From assembly GCF_964204645.1 (NCBI RefSeq), contig NC_134035.1, positions 6,388,501 to 6,452,500 of the forward strand: a stretch of 64,000 nucleotides of DNA. The letters are read 5' to 3'. Positions 26,709-53,589 of the stretch are shown here, piece by piece; within the stretch, counting starts at the first letter, position 1, and every line of letters starts with the position of its first letter. A program made the position numbers and the translations under genes. A model generated the notes under the pieces. The model did not search any database and was not told where the DNA came from. It was given only the letters and a program-made list of their open reading frames with translations. The DNA comes from Tubulanus polymorphus (lineage: Eukaryota; Nemertea; Palaeonemertea; Tubulaniformes; Tubulanidae).

Positions 26709-29545
26709 AGTTTGTGTCTGCGTTTAGGAGGACGTCGTACATCAGCTGCAGACGTTCAGTAAACGTGAGATACATTTCCTAATCGTCAACGTCGATAATT
26801 ACAAGTGCCGTTTTACTGGCACTCGCTATTTTCCTATTCTGTCTTTGCCCAGTGTTTCCTATACGTGCACTTACATGTTTCGACGATTATCGCAGTACGT
26901 TTAAAACAGTTAGATGACTATGCTGCTACTTGTGCTGCTGCTGCTGCTGCTTCTGCTCTGTCGAATTCAGAGGATCGGTATTTTTCTTCAAGATGTAAAT
27001 TTGAAAGCTGCATGGCAGCGATTAGAGTTTTCTGCACCAATGATTCTGTTACAGGGAGCCGCAAATCCGCATTGTAATGATTTGTCCGAATCGTAGTCCT
27101 AAGTCCCAACCTGTAATATTGTAGGTTTCAATCGGTGCTGCCATCTATTCATCACCTCCGATTCACGCAATGGCAGACTGATATCAGCGAGCCCAAACAC
27201 GATGTTTAACCATTGACTCTAAGCATCATAGTTTTACACAAGACAGCGAATGTGTAGCTTCGTATTGTAAAAATTTCAATCGTTTTAATTCTAGAATCTC
27301 CTTTCCTCGCTCGACAACGGTTAACTTAAAGGAATATACCAGCTAAAGCCGCTCTTTTGTCATAGTCGTCTTGTCCCATTGTCGAAGCATTTTTTAATCT
27401 TTTCAGAAACTGTTCTTGAAGTGTGCTTCAAATGAAGTTAGAAAATCTTAGTTTCATTCCATAGTTATTTCAATGCAGGGCGTCAATTTTGATTCCAAGT
27501 TTCAGCCCTGTTTTCAATGCGTGTGTTTGAGTCGTCACATTTTCATTTTCCCTATCATCTTGGGGGAGATGGTTTTTTAACGGTTTGAATTTTTCGAAAA
27601 CTATGCTGAAATAATGGACTTCAAATTGAGTAACGCACAGATACACATGTCAGCGTTAATCTCTGTCGAAAGAAGTCTTCGATTCATTCATTTATATTTT
27701 ATGAAATTTCTTTATGTGGAACAGCAACAGTTTCCGACACATTTCGATCATCTCTGACTTCGCTAAACCGCGGACATGCAGCAGGAGCAACAGCAGCTCG
27801 AGAGTAATTTCTAACTTATTTTCGTCAATTCTGGTTGACGTTTCGGATGAATGAATTGCAGTAGCACACTGGTAGTCACAAGAACATTATTCGATCCCAT
27901 CGCTCGCGCTCGTCGAAGCGTTCAGTTAGCTCAACAAATTGCTCTTTTGCCAAACGTTGATGGCTACAAACGCCAGCAATGTATTGCGACCAGAGTATGG
28001 GTCTGACATCCTGTGTAATGGAAAAATGTGAAACGGCTGCTCTATACGGTTCCGCTGAATTCACATGATGGAAGTCGATTTGAACACGACTCTCGGGTCG
28101 GTCCAATGGGTCGTGACTCACACTGGACGAGGCTAGAGGTTACAGTTTCCACGGTTACCAAAAAAATATATCCCATTGCTCATGATAGTATTTGAGTCGA
28201 GACGTTAAGATAACTCGTGCATATACTTATGTAATGACTGGCTTTTAGCAGATTGATTTGAAAACGAGGCCCCCAAAATAGCGACAACTTCGGCAGGGGC
28301 AGATTTAGAGAGAGAAGGGGGTTTTGCCAAGATAACACGGTTCAAGTCTAGTATAGAGTGGTATATCGCCCCACTCAGAGTTGCAAGATAAAGAAGGAAT
28401 AATTCAACTACGCGCATTGAGTTTTCCTATACCGACATACCGACGAAACTACAAACCGACATGCCGAACATGTGCCACAACCCACATATTCCGCCATGTT
28501 GACTGGTGACCTGCTGTTTATCTACGATGAATAAAGATTCATAAAGGGTTAATTCAAATTGTGATCTATTGCTGTGAGCATTGGATATCTTATTAGTCAG
28601 ATACACATCCTCCCTCTCGACCTCCTCCTCTCTCACTCCTCGCGCGCTCAGTTTGTCGGATTTTCTGGAATGGGAAAACATCTCTCTTTCTGATTAATTA
28701 CATCAAGGGAAAACGGAATAGCCTTCTCGATTAAGCAAACTGCCATCCGCGCTGTCCTGCACGCCTTTGATCAACGCTAGCAGACCTGCAGCAATCCATT
28801 TGTTGTCCATTCACAGCGACTGCTGTAGATCGCTCAGTTATGACAAGCTGGATTATTTTTCCAGTTGGTGCAAGCAATTTCCATAAATACGCAGGGAGAA
28901 CGAGTGAGGGAGTTAGTGAGAGGGAGAGAGGTAGGGAAAAAAGTGAGGTGGCATCGAATAGACAGGAACATGACAGCCAGGTCGACACCAGACGTGACCG
29001 TTGCATGGATCAAATCGTATTTCATTCATATCGACTTCATCTCCCGTCCAGAATCACTTAACAGACCTAGAATGTTTCTATATAATAAAAGCAGCCTTCA
29101 GGAACGACGGTTCCACGTGAAGTGATGGTTTCACCATAGACTACAGTGTCTCTTTAATGAACTGAAAGGGCATACTTTCTTCTAAGGAACATAAAGAGCA
29201 CAGGGCTTCGTATTTATTTTTTCAGATTGGTCATAAATTATTAGATAACATAAGAACCAAATTGAGCTTAGACTGGTTTTGGTATGCTCTTGGAACCCAA
29301 ATGTAGTTATCAAAGTAAAAGCACTTTTACTGACCCAACCTATGATATTGTATGGTATAAAAATCTATGACAAGGAAATTTGATCCGGTTTTGCGACTTT
29401 TAATCTCACGAAGTTGCGTCGATATCGTCTCCATCTTATAAAACATCAGGTATCATTGTGTAAGGCGGATTGAATCTAGATTTAATCAATTTATCCCAGC
29501 GGTGGCGGCTACGGTGCATTGCAGTATAATAAACCTGTTTCATTC
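26709..29545. other. No gene seen
   Basis: A TGC-repeat (about 26925-26960) creates leucine-rich and alanine-rich frames. The remaining frames are short and unrecognised. Confidence 0.5.
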
Positions 29546-32849
<3,304 letters not shown>

Positions 32850-41412: not shown

Positions 41413-42510
41413 CCAAGAAATAATCCGGTCCCACTACGTAAAAGATATGGAGTCTCATGGAAGGAAGTGAGAAGTCGTGATGTACTACGCCCAAAACTAT
41501 GGAACCGGATCATGATCGAGTCTAAACAATTATTTGCGGTTCTATTAAAGGGAGGTTTATCTGTGAGTGACACGGTGAAGCCACGCGGGTATAATCCTAA
41601 CCGGGGTAATGTTATTATCTGGTGGAGATCGCTCGTGGGGTTTACACAACTTTTGAAATTGAATTAGAAGACAATGTTAATGCATTGACAAGAACTGACA
41701 AATCTAAATTAGTGCCTGTACTGATGCTGGTCTGAGCCGCAAGACCCAGCATGTGCTGCATCACCCAAAACGTGCCGATGTCCTAGCGCCCACTAACAAC
41801 TACATCACCCGGCTACAAATCTGTGGGTTACTCTTTGTTTTGCACGGCTGCATGTTGAACTGGGCTTTTGTGGCAGGTGGCATATCATCTATGATGGATT
41901 CTTGGCAAAATGATCGCGACTTCACATGATCGCGACATCCAGTTTGGATTTTATTCTTTCCCATGCATAGCTTTTCTGAACAAGCTATGCATCCAGGTCA
42001 CACCCTACAACTTTATTCCGGCCCTTTCGAAACTTAGGATTTATCTATAAATCAAACCATTCTGGTGTAATACTGTCTGTCACTGCGAGACTTGCCTTAA
42101 GGAGTTGATTCTGTAAAACAACTATCGGGCTATTTGCGCAAATCCAATACCAAATGACGAGAACATGCCGAGTTACTTTCCAACAACGACTGTTTTCGTT
42201 TAGTATTGTTGTGATTCAGTAATCGTTACTTTTGGTTTCTCTGGCGTGGGTAACACGCCTGCTGCTCGCACCCTAAACATTAGCAGCATTTATAGAGTTT
42301 TGGGATAAAGGCTCCAGATAATATAACGTCACCGGTGGCGCATTCACCTTTGAATTACATTGTGGTTGGTATCTATGTCACTTATGTGGCGACGTGTGTG
42401 TACCACATGGTGTGACGATCTGCTGCCTCATCAGTACATTATGAATAATTAAAATGCCTTCAGTGTTCGGGTGGAAAACACGGGGAAATGTTCACTCGTC
42501 TTCTGTGACT
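41413..42510. other. No gene seen
   Basis: A plus-strand frame continues out of the TATG repeat to 41667 (residues such as GVSWKEVRSRDVLRPKLWN) but starts inside the repeat and has no recognised domain. A GATCGCGACWTC string is repeated at about 41911 and 41929. Nothing else. Confidence 0.45.
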
Positions 42511-42992
<482 letters not shown>

Positions 42993-43057
42993 CTGAGTCA
43001 TCACACAGGGTATCACGGAGCTTAGGATTTTCACCGATCGACACGTCCTCAAGTATT

Positions 43058-43417
43058 CTAAATTCCCATTATATTTACATCAGTGATGTCGATTGACACT
43101 TGGTTCCGCACTTGACTTATCAAACCTACGGTCATACCAACCGAACTCCCGGTGTGTACGGTGAAAGTCTGTAATAACGCCCCTGTGAAGAGGAGACCAG
43201 AACTTTGCGTTACAAAAATGCGATAACGATCCATTGTCACTTCGACTGCCCTGGACTTGAGAATGTTGCCTCTGATAATATGATGATTTTGTCTCGTTAA
43301 ATCGAAGGATTGTAATTTACTGATACGAATTTTAGGCACATTTTTCTCAGAATGTTCGCGTCTGGTCACAAATGCCGCGCGTGTGTGTGTGAATCTGCAG
43401 TCGTCTAGTAGATTCAT
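43058..43417 (-). CDS. Possible coding frame, unknown
   Basis: A minus-strand ATG at 43417 opens 119 residues ending at 43058. The C-terminal part (DRYRIFVTQSSGLLFTGALL; VGLISQVRNQVSIDITDVN) is strand-rich and non-repetitive. The IRISKL string here resembles LRISNL in another frame just upstream (about 43430-43460), hinting at a frameshifted or exon-split protein with a repeated motif. No family is recognised. Low confidence. Confidence 0.2.
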   Translation of the reverse strand: MNLLDDCRFTHTRAAFVTRREHSEKNVPKIRISKLQSFDLTRQNHHIIRGNILKSRAVEVTMDRYRIFVTQSSGLLFTGALLQTFTVHTGSSVGMTVGLISQVRNQVSIDITDVNIMGI

Positions 43418-47766: not shown

Positions 47767-47772
47767 GAGAGG
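47767..47772. repeat. Left target-site duplication, GAGAGG
   Basis: Six bases abutting the left terminus. The same six bases follow the right terminus at 49884. Six is the Maverick/Polinton duplication length. Confidence 0.85.
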
Positions 47773-47921
47773 AGTAATAGGGTTAGTGTTGTTTCATACC
47801 AGAGGTCGAAAGGTCGAGCTCTTGAAAAATAAAAAATAAATTCTCACACGCTCGAATTTATTTTTTTTTTACCCACTCAACCTTTCAACCTCTGATATGA
47901 AACAACACTTACCCTATTACT
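47773..47921. repeat. Left terminal palindrome (hairpin-like end), 149 bp
   Basis: The outer arm 47773-47818 (AGTAATAGGGTTAGTGTTG...) is complementary over 46 bases, with few mismatches, to 47876-47921 (...CAACACTTACCCTATTACT). A second inner stem (AAAATAAATTC / GAATTTATTTT) closes on the loop TCACACGCTC. The end can therefore fold into one long hairpin. Confidence 0.9.
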
Positions 47922-48004
47922 CCAATGATATTCATATATATGGACATTATATAAATGAATATTATATTAATGAAATCAATCTTAATAAAAAATATGTATA
48001 ATAA
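47922..48004 (+). promoter_or_regulatory. A+T-rich leader of element gene 1
   Basis: The 83 bp between the left palindrome and gene 1 are almost pure A+T (ATATATATGG, TATTATATTAATG, TAATAAAAAATATG) and are conserved in the right repeat. Position and conservation suggest a promoter, with a TATAAAT-like string at about 47948. No experimental-type evidence. Confidence 0.35.
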
Positions 48005-48346
48005 ATGGAGAGTAAACAAAGAAACAGTGAATTCTTAATTAGAATTAAAGATACTACAAATGTCAAATCTGTAGATTATGAATTCAAAAAGTTAACAGAA
48101 TTAACCTTACATAAGAAATATTTAATTACAAATACGGAAACAATTACTAATAGATATGGTAATAAATTAGTTATTCAATTAGAATATGAAGGATTAAAAG
48201 GAAATAAATATAAATTCAGAACATATTTACCAGATAGATTTCATAGATTATCTACTGAAGATATTGAAGAATTATATTCTGGTGATTTCTATTTCATATA
48301 TAAAGGTAAGAATGAAAAAGGGCACCATGATATAGATTTCGAATAA
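48005..48346 (+). CDS. Element protein 1, 113 aa, possible OB-fold-like
   Basis: ATG at 48005 in the context ATAATAAATGG; stop TAA at 48344. After a polar N-terminus (about residues 1-25) the order of predicted elements is strand (KKYLITNTETI, 38-48), strand (YGNKLVIQLE, 51-60), strand with a YLPDRF motif (KYKFRTYLPDRF, 68-79), a short acidic helix (STEDIEELY, 83-91), strand (FYFIYKGK, 94-102) and a last strand (HHDIDFE). This five-strand plus helix order resembles small OB-fold single-stranded-DNA-binding proteins; that is an inference from pattern, not a family match. The first 58 codons lie in the left inverted repeat, so the reading frame crosses the repeat boundary. It is the first gene of the element; the next starts 105 bp downstream on the same strand. 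The frame is intact, with no stops or frameshifts, implying recent activity or selection. A DNA-binding role in replication of the element would fit but is unproven. Confidence 0.75.
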   Translation: MESKQRNSEFLIRIKDTTNVKSVDYEFKKLTELTLHKKYLITNTETITNRYGNKLVIQLEYEGLKGNKYKFRTYLPDRFHRLSTEDIEELYSGDFYFIYKGKNEKGHHDIDFE

Positions 48347-48451
48347 AAAAAATGTAAAATAAATGGTAGAATTAACAGAATATAAAAACTAACGATTAAT
48401 TAACGATTTGATGAAAATATCAATTTTAATTAAAAAGAAATTACTAATTAA

Positions 48452-48991
48452 ATGACTGAACAGATACTTCAATTCAAAGATATCGACTTACATGAATTAG
48501 AAAAATATATTACAATTAAACATTTTATTCCTATTCAAGATTTTATTAAAACTGCACGTTTTCGTTTTCAAGTGAATAATATTACTGAATTAAAATTTAA
48601 AAATCATTATCTAATGATAGAGTTATCGAATGAAAAAGATAAAATCTTATTCAATACAATAATTCCAAAATTCACAACATTTGATGAAATAGATAAACAT
48701 TTGATAATTACTGATGAAATACAATCACTTTTTAATAATGAAAATTCACATAAAACATTATTTTTACACTTACGTTATTTCCCTTTCAGAGAATGCTATG
48801 TAATGTTTTTCAGAGTAGAAGAAAAAAGATTTATCCCAGACATTCCAAATGAAAAATCATTCAAAGATGTGGGAATTCAATGTAATTTAGACAATAAAAT
48901 CGAAACACCTAAATATAACCCTAATGAAAGCGTTTTATGTAATTGTGGAAAATATTACACTCGAAACAATAAATCACATCATCTTAAATGA
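48452..48991 (+). CDS. Element protein 2, 179 aa, C-terminal half zinc finger
   Basis: ATG at 48452 (context ATTAAATGA) to TGA at 48989. The N-terminal helix-rich segment (DLHELEKYITIKHFIP) is followed by alternating strand-like blocks (ARFRFQVNNI, HYLMIELSN, KTLFLHLRYFPF, CYVMFFRVEE). A linker (about 125-160) precedes CNCGKYYTRNNKSHHLK at residues 163-179. Cys163, Cys165 and His176/177 match the start of the C-x-C-G-x-x-Y...N-K-x-x-H finger often found at the end of proteins of viruses and large DNA transposons. The last His of such fingers is missing because the TGA falls before it; a His codon lies in frame at 48998. So the stop may be recent, the gene may tolerate a partial finger, or the site may be metal-free. 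No enzyme motif is visible. Function unknown; a nucleic-acid-binding role is inferred. Confidence 0.75.
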   Translation: MTEQILQFKDIDLHELEKYITIKHFIPIQDFIKTARFRFQVNNITELKFKNHYLMIELSNEKDKILFNTIIPKFTTFDEIDKHLIITDEIQSLFNNENSHKTLFLHLRYFPFRECYVMFFRVEEKRFIPDIPNEKSFKDVGIQCNLDNKIETPKYNPNESVLCNCGKYYTRNNKSHHLK

Positions 48992-49093
48992 AAATATCAT
49001 AACTCAAAAATGATAATTCAACTCTAAATATTCACATTCAAAATAAGATATTCCAAATTACTTATCAATCTTTAAATTTTTGTTCTTAAATCA

Positions 49094-49243
49094 ATGAATG
49101 AGAATGAGTTCAGCATTCCAACTGTAAAAAGTGATTTAGAACATTATTTAGTTGCTGGAGGTTTAATATTAGCTGCGCTTTATTTTTATTATGAAAATAT
49201 TAGTAAAGATCTAATGAATGAAAATACGAAAGTAAGTAAGTAA
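49094..49243 (+). CDS. Element peptide 3, 49 aa, single membrane segment
   Basis: ATG at 49094 (context AAATCAATGA) to TAA at 49241. An acidic N-terminus of about 17 residues is followed by one strongly hydrophobic stretch (YLVAGGLILAALYFYY, residues 18-33) and a polar C-terminus. The topology suggests a small single-pass membrane protein. Same strand as the neighbours, 102 bp after gene 2. Small membrane peptides are common accessory genes of DNA viruses; no homology is claimed. It is short enough to arise by chance in A+T-rich DNA, but the composition contrasts with the surrounding spacers. Confidence 0.5.
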   Translation: MNENEFSIPTVKSDLEHYLVAGGLILAALYFYYENISKDLMNENTKVSK

Positions 49244-49333
49244 TTGAAAAAATTAAATGGAAATAATCATAGAAATAATAATCATAAAAAAATTTAATAT
49301 TGAATCAGATTAGTGAATTAATTAGATAAATAA

Positions 49334-49456
49334 ATGAGTGACAATAAGATATTAGAAATATTACATTTGATATATAAAAATCAAGAGCGCATTAAGTTAA
49401 TTATAATGCTTTCAGGATTAGTTTCATTTTCAATTTACTCATTAAAACAGTTATAA
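49334..49456 (+). CDS. Element peptide 4, 40 aa, hydrophobic C-terminus
   Basis: ATG at 49334 (context ATAAATGA) to TAA at 49454, ending just 8 bp before the right inverted repeat. Residues 1-20 are polar and helical (MSDNKILEILHLIYKNQERI); residues 21-37 are hydrophobic (KLIIMLSGLVSFSIYSL). It resembles a tail-anchored peptide. It begins with the same TAAATG context as genes 1 and 2. Unknown function. Confidence 0.45.
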   Translation: MSDNKILEILHLIYKNQERIKLIIMLSGLVSFSIYSLKQL

Positions 49457-49464
49457 CTAATTCT

Positions 49465-49645
49465 TTGAATAACTAATTTATTACCATATCTATTAGTAAT
49501 TGTTTCTATATTATATTTGTAATTAGATATTTCTTATGTAATGTTAATTCTGTTAACTTTTTGAATTTATAATCTACAGATTTGACATTTGTAGTATCTT
49601 TAATTCCATTTAAGAATCCACTGTGTATTTGTTTTTACTCTCCAT
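49465..49645 (-). pseudogene. Inverted, truncated copy of element gene 1
   Basis: Within the right inverted repeat the minus strand repeats the leader and start of gene 1 (ATG at 49645, again in ATAATAAATGG). Small indels shift the frame and a TAA ends it after 11 codons (49610). The copy stops at the repeat boundary, so only the first third to half was ever present. It marks the inverted repeat as a duplication that captured a gene start. Confidence 0.85.
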
Positions 49646-49730
49646 TTATTATACATATTTTTTATTAAAATTGATTTCATTAACATAATATTCATTTATA
49701 TAATGTTCATATATATATGTTTATCATTGG

Positions 49731-49883
49731 AGTAATAGGGTAAGTGTTGTTTCATATCAGAGGTTGAAAGGTTGAGTGAGTGAAAAATAAAAAATAAATT
49801 CGAGCGTGTGAGAATTTTTTTTAAAATTTTTTATGAGCTCGACCTATAGACCTCTGGTATGAAACAACACTTACCCTATTACT
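49731..49883. repeat. Right terminal palindrome (hairpin-like end), 153 bp
   Basis: Same architecture as the left end: AGTAATAGGGTAAGTGTTG at 49731 pairs with the terminal CAACACTTACCCTATTACT. The loop GAGCGTGTGA is the complement of the left loop, so both ends are in the same orientation rather than 'flipped' relative to each other. Confidence 0.9.
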
Positions 49884-49889
49884 GAGAGG
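49884..49889. repeat. Right target-site duplication, GAGAGG
   Basis: Exact copy of 47767-47772, immediately after the CCCTATTACT terminus. Confidence 0.85.

Positions 49890-52440: not shown

Positions 52441-53589
<1,149 letters not shown>

Follow-up and report, generated by a model that had tools for sequence, protein, structure and literature searches.

A shortened copy from a gene-carrying family of probable Polinton satellites in the genome of Tubulanus polymorphus

Here we describe a 2.1-kb mobile element in a stretch of 64,000 nucleotides from the nemertean Tubulanus polymorphus (contig NC_134035.1, positions 6,388,501 to 6,452,500; hereafter the window), together with the family of small elements to which it belongs. 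We consider it probable that this element is a degraded copy of a non-autonomous, gene-carrying family of satellites to the Polinton/Maverick elements that share its genome. The evidence which mainly carries this reading comes from the tips of the elements, their 6-bp target-site duplications, two of their three genes (B and C) and the linkage of these genes across the genome. The family is built like the transpovirons of giant viruses, and its dependence on Polintons is what we infer from the features that both share. As satellites living on a virus-like transposon, these elements would therefore be parasites of a parasite.

A family of small elements with Polinton-type ends

The assembly that we searched comprises 267.8 Mb in 77 contigs, several of the long ones with TTAGGG repeats near their ends. 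Using the window element as a DNA query we obtained 155 matches, of which the strongest fell mostly over its middle (best 40 of 2383 candidates scored), and a protein search with its 179-aa gene A likewise gave 155 matches (best 150 of 496 candidates scored); among 30 A copies fetched, 19 were free of stop codons and 11 were not. A 34-nt tip pattern, allowing up to three mismatches, occurred 48 times in forward and 50 times in reverse orientation genome-wide, with 0 and 0 occurrences of the reversed control. We then have a scan for tip pairs at 65 loci (several overlapping), in which the 6-bp flanks could differ at no more than one base and which returned eight distinct tip-bounded elements of 1,962-2,702 bp; when the flanks were displaced as a control, 6 of 336 matched. 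Only about 1.5 kb of flank was available at 60 of the scanned loci, and absent ends at these loci hence mean little. One 721-bp tip pair (L029) was dropped as spurious.

Exact duplications were found around the window element (GAGAGG) and around the elements at L002 (GGCGCC), L005 (CATGGT), L026 (AATGTT), L034 (GATTCT), L038 (ATTATT) and L056 (CCTACA), while that of L022 has one mismatch. A longer copy, L068 (C10:7883725-7888741, 5,017 bp), has CCTACT on both sides. Overall, ten insertions could be compared at both ends: eight carry an exact duplication, one a mismatched duplication and one, L070, none, those with a duplication being 1,962-5,017 bp long. A preliminary description of the window, made from its sequence alone, had proposed looking for further copies with matching termini and 6-bp duplications in this genome, and such copies do exist, in the form of the tip matches and of eight other duplicated insertions, L070 being the one that departs from the expectation. 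Because tips and duplications of their own bound several insertions of 2-5 kb, we could rule out that a larger element had collapsed here to leave only its end.

The family displays the AG...CT tips and the inverted repeats of several hundred bp by which Polintons are recognised. Left arms of the inverted repeats measure 265-978 bp in seven elements and just 62 bp in L056, and the GC content of the small elements is 22-25%. How far the repeats reach inwards varies between copies. They extend into gene A in L022 and L034; in L068 the arms are at least 2,050 bp long and 99.85% identical; and L070, an element of about 5.9 kb, is palindromic over 5,652 bp at 99.7% identity (L070 50-5701; C6:16819500-16825200). 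In L068 and L070 alike, each arm contains genes A, B and C, and the near-identity of these arms points to recent activity and to both being young copies.

Several other observations concern the organisation of such loci. At L067 (C10:6056800-6064600) we found a tandem array with a period of 2,744 bp and 99.9% identity, which brings together GC-richer DNA, an endonuclease VII-like gene and an A gene that is fused to the zinc-finger start of the polymerase. Next to gene B at L041, L046 and L068-L071 lies an AT-rich minisatellite that is free of stops in several frames (MINCLTVE repeats) and whose length varies by copy, and in part of the copies a minisatellite stands between A and B. Finally, two identical variant tips face each other at a distance of 44.5 kb (G000:C1:17135631 on the plus and 17180124 on the minus strand), which could be a chance pairing or a very long element.

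Genes of the family and signals common with a Polinton

Outside the window, the family carries three genes. A encodes 186-191 aa and finishes in a finger-like C-x-C...H...H pattern that we read by eye as a zinc finger; the product of B measures 70-77 aa and, judged by eye, contains a single membrane segment; that of C, at 100-101 aa, shows a membrane segment, again by eye, together with a C2H2 finger that falls just short of the Pfam cut-off (E 1.5e-4). Proteins A of L068 and L070 (37% identical to that of the window) and of L067 (43%) are all open, and the A region of L061 is broken. Neither Pfam nor NCBIfam gave an above-cut-off match to A, B or C (full-length B having been compared with NCBIfam only, which holds for all library results given here), and A and C had no convincing match in PHROGs; likewise, these library searches identified no helicase among A, C and the protein of a fourth gene of the window element, which encodes 113 aa. 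In a protein collection there was no homologue of the 179-aa A at E <= 0.01 or of C at E <= 0.1, and one of the 113-aa protein (P0001, 62%); viral contigs contained no homologue of the 113-aa protein or of A. Below-cut-off matches to DUF5126, Tsp45I, RepL, an IS4 transposase (113-aa protein) and several PHROGs were set aside, and the idea that A might be related to the 113-aa protein of Polintons was dropped as well, the HMM (hidden Markov model) match being weak (E 0.0026, from a tiny set) and the profile-profile probability 1.2%.

Selection on these genes was assessed by the ratio of nonsynonymous to synonymous substitution rates (dN/dS), with medians taken over pairs with dS above 0.05 and over stop-free frames with set starts and lengths only. 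The median for B was 0.17 (115 of 120 pairs; neutral median 0.78, 95% interval 0.34-1.94), at dS of up to 1.44, and the one for C was 0.29 (65 of 66 pairs; neutral median 0.87, interval 0.40-2.05), at dS of up to 0.77. These two genes alone lie clearly below their neutral intervals. For A the medians were 0.49 in group 1 (134 of 171 pairs; neutral median 0.92, 95% interval 0.42-2.30) and 0.31 in group 2 (4 of 6 pairs; neutral median 0.78, 95% interval 0.33-3.90). In a separate run on the 19 stop-free A copies, which left out the 11 of 30 with stops, the median was 0.42 (117 of 171 pairs), and values for the window copy compared with the 18 others were 0.22-0.48. The 113-aa gene had a median of 0.24 (5 of 6 pairs; neutral median 0.90, interval from 0.40). 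As the preliminary description had anticipated, then, there are frames common to many copies, namely A, B and C, with medians of 0.17-0.49 compared with neutral values of 0.78-0.92.

In none of the small elements read was there a frame for an integrase or for PolB, the most that remained of the latter being 46-52 codons of its zinc-finger start (L022, L049), nor did the copies read contain any frame of the size or kind of a capsid protein or packaging ATPase. Profile HMMs of A, B and C in turn found no convincing match among the open reading frames of one full Polinton. The same separation was observed on a genomic scale. Among the 150 listed C loci (the best of 375 candidates), none lay within 12 kb of a listed integrase (4.3 expected by chance) and one within 20 kb (7.0 expected); within that distance, two had a listed PolB (3.0 expected) and seven a listed 113-aa gene (7.2 expected). 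In contrast, 104 of 150 listed 113-aa loci had an integrase within 12 kb, and 67 of 73 listed PolB loci had a 113-aa gene within 2.5 kb.

The candidate helper that we could read end to end was reached via the 113-aa frame. It is a full Polinton of 18,308 bp (C9:9231110-9249417) with the duplication ATGGTC, and its tip decamer is the same as that of the small elements. Its inverted repeats are 462 bp long and 98.7% identical, and each tip contains a 268-bp palindrome, 87% self-complementary (L064 6611-6878, L066 2150-2417). We detected an ATPase (Pox_A32, 6.3e-10), an rve integrase core just under the cut-off (1.1e-7; 32.4 bits, cut-off 32.6) and, also below cut-off, a chromodomain (4.8e-5); as the latter sits in an overlapping second frame, the integrase looks split. 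An endonuclease-like gene at the right end (L066) weakly matches HNH_4 (E 0.029), the related gene of L067 matches endonuclease VII in PHROGs (1.5e-15), and the polymerase-type frame upstream had, apart from an Endonuclease_7 domain (2.4e-5), no fitting library match. Genome-wide, the 73 PolB matches scored (best of 2572 candidates) were 96-100% identical and the 150 integrase matches scored (best of 1424) 91-100%, with 363 aa as the commonest open integrase frame; these lists represent the closest relatives of the C9 Polinton, whose family is large and abundant in this genome. The list of tip matches, inspected by eye, included no facing pair 10-30 kb apart of the sort that full-length Polintons with tips of the window type would give. 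Two further observations concern Polinton genes: a 90-aa frame near the right end (L066 1797-2069, minus strand) joins a polymerase zinc-finger start to an endonuclease-like tail, and at G000:C5:10692728-10693066 a match to the 113-aa gene lies within an 866-aa open frame.

Beyond the tips, the small elements and this Polinton share two kinds of internal signal. A 30-bp motif at the apex of the terminal foldback is identical at 30 of 30 positions in the left end of the window element and both ends of the C9 Polinton, with no occurrence in 50 shuffles of the element (one strand); L068 and L070 carry it with one base different. Seven genes of the Polinton, the capsid-like one among them, have ahead of them a promoter-like motif whose AAATAAATG-like end lies at the start codon; in two interior pieces of the Polinton this motif was seen 7 times compared with 0.38 expected. 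The same motif stands before gene B in all eight satellites or pieces scanned, at no other site in them, and the first 47 kb of the window contain no occurrence. In the Polinton, a second motif lies ahead of both the polymerase-type frame and the endonuclease, and in the window it is found before the 113-aa gene. It was recognised before the 113-aa gene of the Polinton by eye only, the strict scan being negative there, and before gene A the strict scan was positive in L026 only. It is conceivable that the motif of the gene B type is a 'late' signal and the second motif an 'early' one.

The window element and the alternatives

Features of the window element are given in Table 1. The preliminary description had noted GAGAGG on both flanks, AGT...ACT termini, inverted repeats of about 400 bp and four intact-looking short frames on one strand. 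Flanks, termini (AGTAATAGGG from 47773 and CCCTATTACT ending at 49883) and repeats (90.6% identical over 426 aligned columns) were all confirmed, and so were four short ATG frames on the plus strand, of which the 113-aa frame alone is full length. Missing from that account is a foldback of about 150 bp at each end of the element; folded as single-stranded DNA, 47773-47923 has a predicted hairpin energy of -45.1 kcal/mol (z -13.7, none of 200 shuffles as good). Measured against its relatives, which have the same start, window A stops 7-12 residues early, and B and C are similarly cut from 70-77 to 49 aa and from 100-101 to 40 aa. The region 47974-48382 derives from a Polinton, since it is 89% identical to a Polinton stretch comprising the 113-aa gene, a little sequence ahead of it and the opening codons of the gene that follows. 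The beginning of the 113-aa gene recurs in inverted form within the right inverted repeat, so that copying of one end onto the other probably took place later. From its sequence, the window copy is evidently a degraded member of the family, with A, B and C shortened and with a first gene that is Polinton sequence, and the proposal that this particular copy had kept its own genes intact is not supported. No empty site of the insertion was found in the assembly, where the only matches were the two flanks themselves. Elsewhere in the window, long simple-sequence tracts (GA-rich or triplet repeats) are open in several phases at 29442-30061, 42445-43096 and 52836-53336.

Table 1. Coordinates of the element and its features within the window
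Feature	Position	Strand	Remark
Whole element	47773..49883	+	2,111 bp, 23% GC
Left 6-bp target-site duplication	47767..47772	.	GAGAGG, exact
Right 6-bp target-site duplication	49884..49889	.	GAGAGG, exact
Left terminal inverted repeat	47773..48185	+	413 bp, extends into 113-aa gene
Right terminal inverted repeat	49460..49883	-	424 bp, with inverted copy of 113-aa gene start
Left terminal foldback (hairpin)	47773..47921	.	
Right terminal foldback	49731..49883	.	
30-bp apex motif AAATAAATTCTCACACGCTCGAATTTATTT, left	47834..47863	+	identical to motif at both C9 Polinton ends
Apex motif, right copy	49792..49821	-	1 mismatch
Polinton-derived block (PolB-113 spacer, 113-aa gene, start of next Polinton gene)	47974..48382	+	89% identity, 410 columns
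Promoter-like motif of the type preceding the Polinton polymerase gene	47975..48007	+	putatively 'early'
113-aa gene	48005..48346	+	full length; in Polintons directly 3' of PolB
Remnant, first codons of the Polinton gene after the 113-aa gene	48363..48392	+	MVELTEYKN-stop
Gene A	48452..48991	+	179 aa; C-x-C...H...H finger without last His
Promoter-like motif	49076..49096	+	ends at gene B ATG; also before seven Polinton genes including capsid-like
Gene B	49094..49243	+	49 aa, shortened; one membrane segment by eye
Gene C	49334..49456	+	40 aa, shortened

How would such elements spread? We envisage that the protein-primed polymerase of a Polinton would copy the satellite as linear DNA from its hairpin tips and that the Polinton integrase would insert it, creating the 6-bp duplication. 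Gene B would be switched on together with the virion genes, and A, B and C could assist in the copying, transcription or packaging of the satellite. The inverted repeats seem to lengthen inwards through copying of one end onto the other, reaching into the Polinton-derived gene in the window element and taking in the whole A-B-C set in L068 and L070; such variable inward growth would fit the replication of a linear molecule.

Small elements with Polinton-type ends could nonetheless have arisen in other ways. They could be ordinary internally deleted Polintons, which have lost their middle and are drifting, with frames that are open by chance or through recent copying. Tips, duplication length and 113-aa block of the Polinton type are in line with this, as are the polymerase zinc-finger codons left in L022 and L049, the Polinton-type endonuclease gene of L067 and the stops in 11 of the 30 fetched A copies. 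However, the full Polinton yielded no A, B or C, these genes are unlinked to the listed integrases and PolBs, B and C fall under the neutral interval with dS of up to 1.44 and 0.77, and the A proteins of L067, L068 and L070 have stayed open at 37-43% identity to that of the window, all of which makes simple deletion an unlikely origin. It is harder still to credit that A, B and C stem from another Polinton or virus lineage of the host, living or extinct, of which the small elements are deletion derivatives. Such a lineage might have gone unseen given that a single Polinton was read whole and that our PolB and integrase lists cover only its closest relatives, and the protein collection, which contains no homologue of A or C, gives no guide to where these came from; but at 2-5 kb the tip-bounded insertions have no space for the missing genes, there is no excess of PolB or integrase near the 150 listed C loci, and L068 and L070, with their near-identical arms, hold A-B-C and no replication gene. 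Very unlikely, in our view, is a self-sufficient small DNA virus or transposon with a replication protein of its own, for example A, and inherited Polinton-like tips. The finger-like end of A and below-cut-off matches to the RepL plasmid replication protein (E 0.036) and the Tsp45I restriction enzyme (E 0.0062) may hint at it, and the terminal hairpins resemble those of hairpin-ended small DNA viruses. Against it are the same 6-bp duplications and tips as in the Polinton, along with the lack of above-cut-off matches for A, B and C in Pfam and NCBIfam and of convincing PHROGs matches for A and C.

The satellite reading has its own difficulties, and the following points weigh against it. The tip of the window element is 78% identical to that of the C9 Polinton over 55 nt, and the helper may therefore have been another Polinton family. 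What we take to be PolB and the capsid protein of the C9 Polinton were recognised by characteristic motifs, and these frames had no fitting match in Pfam, NCBIfam or PHROGs (for PolB, also among PDB sequences). The apex motif, at four or fewer edits, is absent from four of the eight tip-bounded elements scanned whole (L005, L034, L038, L056), and the promoter-like motif was defined after inspecting both sets, satellite and Polinton. L070 shows no duplication, its flanks CATAAA and CCCCCG being unlike, and the copy and linkage lists are the best-scored subsets of larger candidate sets. With regard to selection, the median of A group 1 lies within the neutral interval and that of group 2 barely outside it (4 pairs). 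Outside Polinton pieces, the loci compared have the 113-aa gene only in the window, L004 (with 3 stops) and L061; its low dN/dS stems from comparisons with Polintons, and the single satellite-satellite pair (window-L061) gives 0.54, so that the low value does not support upkeep of this gene in satellites. On balance, the earlier view of a miniature, helper-dependent Polinton relative with its own genes stands for the family, by tip decamer, 6-bp duplication, apex motif, dN/dS of A, B and C and linkage, and is not supported for this copy, with the dependence itself presumed from these common features.

Relation to known systems and significance

Polintons duplicate 6 bp of target (PMC10045372) and have PolB, an rve integrase and inverted repeats as hallmarks (PMC12220804). 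The family resembles Polinton/Maverick elements in general in its AG tips, long inverted repeats and 6-bp duplications, and those of this genome in its apex and promoter-like motifs and, in the window copy, the 113-aa gene. Unlike them, the satellites (1,962-5,017 bp in copies with duplications, compared with 18.3 kb) have no frame for a polymerase, integrase, ATPase or capsid protein, and instead possess A, B and C of their own.

The closest parallel in build are the transpovirons of Mimiviridae, which measure 7.4-7.6 kb at 22% GC, with inverted repeats of 380-520 nt and a central tandem repeat, and which are described as encoding a core protein with a zinc finger and a small one with a single membrane segment, and as carrying helper-like regulatory elements (PMC7031253). 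The satellites are comparable in GC content (22-25%), in repeats of several hundred bp, in the A-B minisatellite of some copies, in their putative finger and membrane proteins (A finger, B and C membrane segments by eye, C2H2 match of C just under the cut-off) and in the helper-like motif before B. They differ in being smaller and integrated with 6-bp duplications, and in having a Polinton as putative helper and no helicase found, whereas transpovirons have a conserved helicase and a giant-virus host, being carried as linear episomes by a giant virus and its virophage; the likeness observed is one of build.

Other comparisons are more distant. Non-autonomous DNA transposons, including miniature inverted-repeat transposable elements (MITEs), similarly make apparent use of the machinery of another element and have matching tips and many copies. 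MITEs are non-coding, however, and the satellites keep genes, which sets them apart from elements defined by a lack of coding capacity. Virophages are also mobile genomes relying on a helper virus, but they encode their own capsid and the satellites have no capsid gene. Tlr elements were once proposed to be non-autonomous derivatives of Polintons, but the case has been made that they are an old lineage apart, with a capsid gene of their own (PMC4028283), and such a gene is again absent from the satellites. Searches of open-licence literature gave no paper on non-autonomous or miniature Polintons and, among the papers listed, none that by its title or the opening of its abstract deals with gene-carrying Polinton satellites.

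A bolder interpretation, which we put forward tentatively and which may well not hold, is that these satellites are the nuclear counterpart, in a multicellular host, of transpovirons and phage satellites: miniature linear genomes riding Polinton viruses, driven by helper promoters, whose membrane and zinc-finger proteins would serve to get into the particles or replication sites of Polintons or to reshape them, perhaps at a cost to the helper. Polintons carry capsid genes, and whether they form particles in animals is still argued. If our reading is true, a satellite which keeps genes, one of them behind a motif of the structural genes of its helper, would be indirect evidence for a staged, virus-like Polinton programme that is worth parasitising. 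Alongside the satellites already described for phages and giant viruses there would then be an integrated case from an animal, and the family would offer small conserved proteins with a directly testable role.

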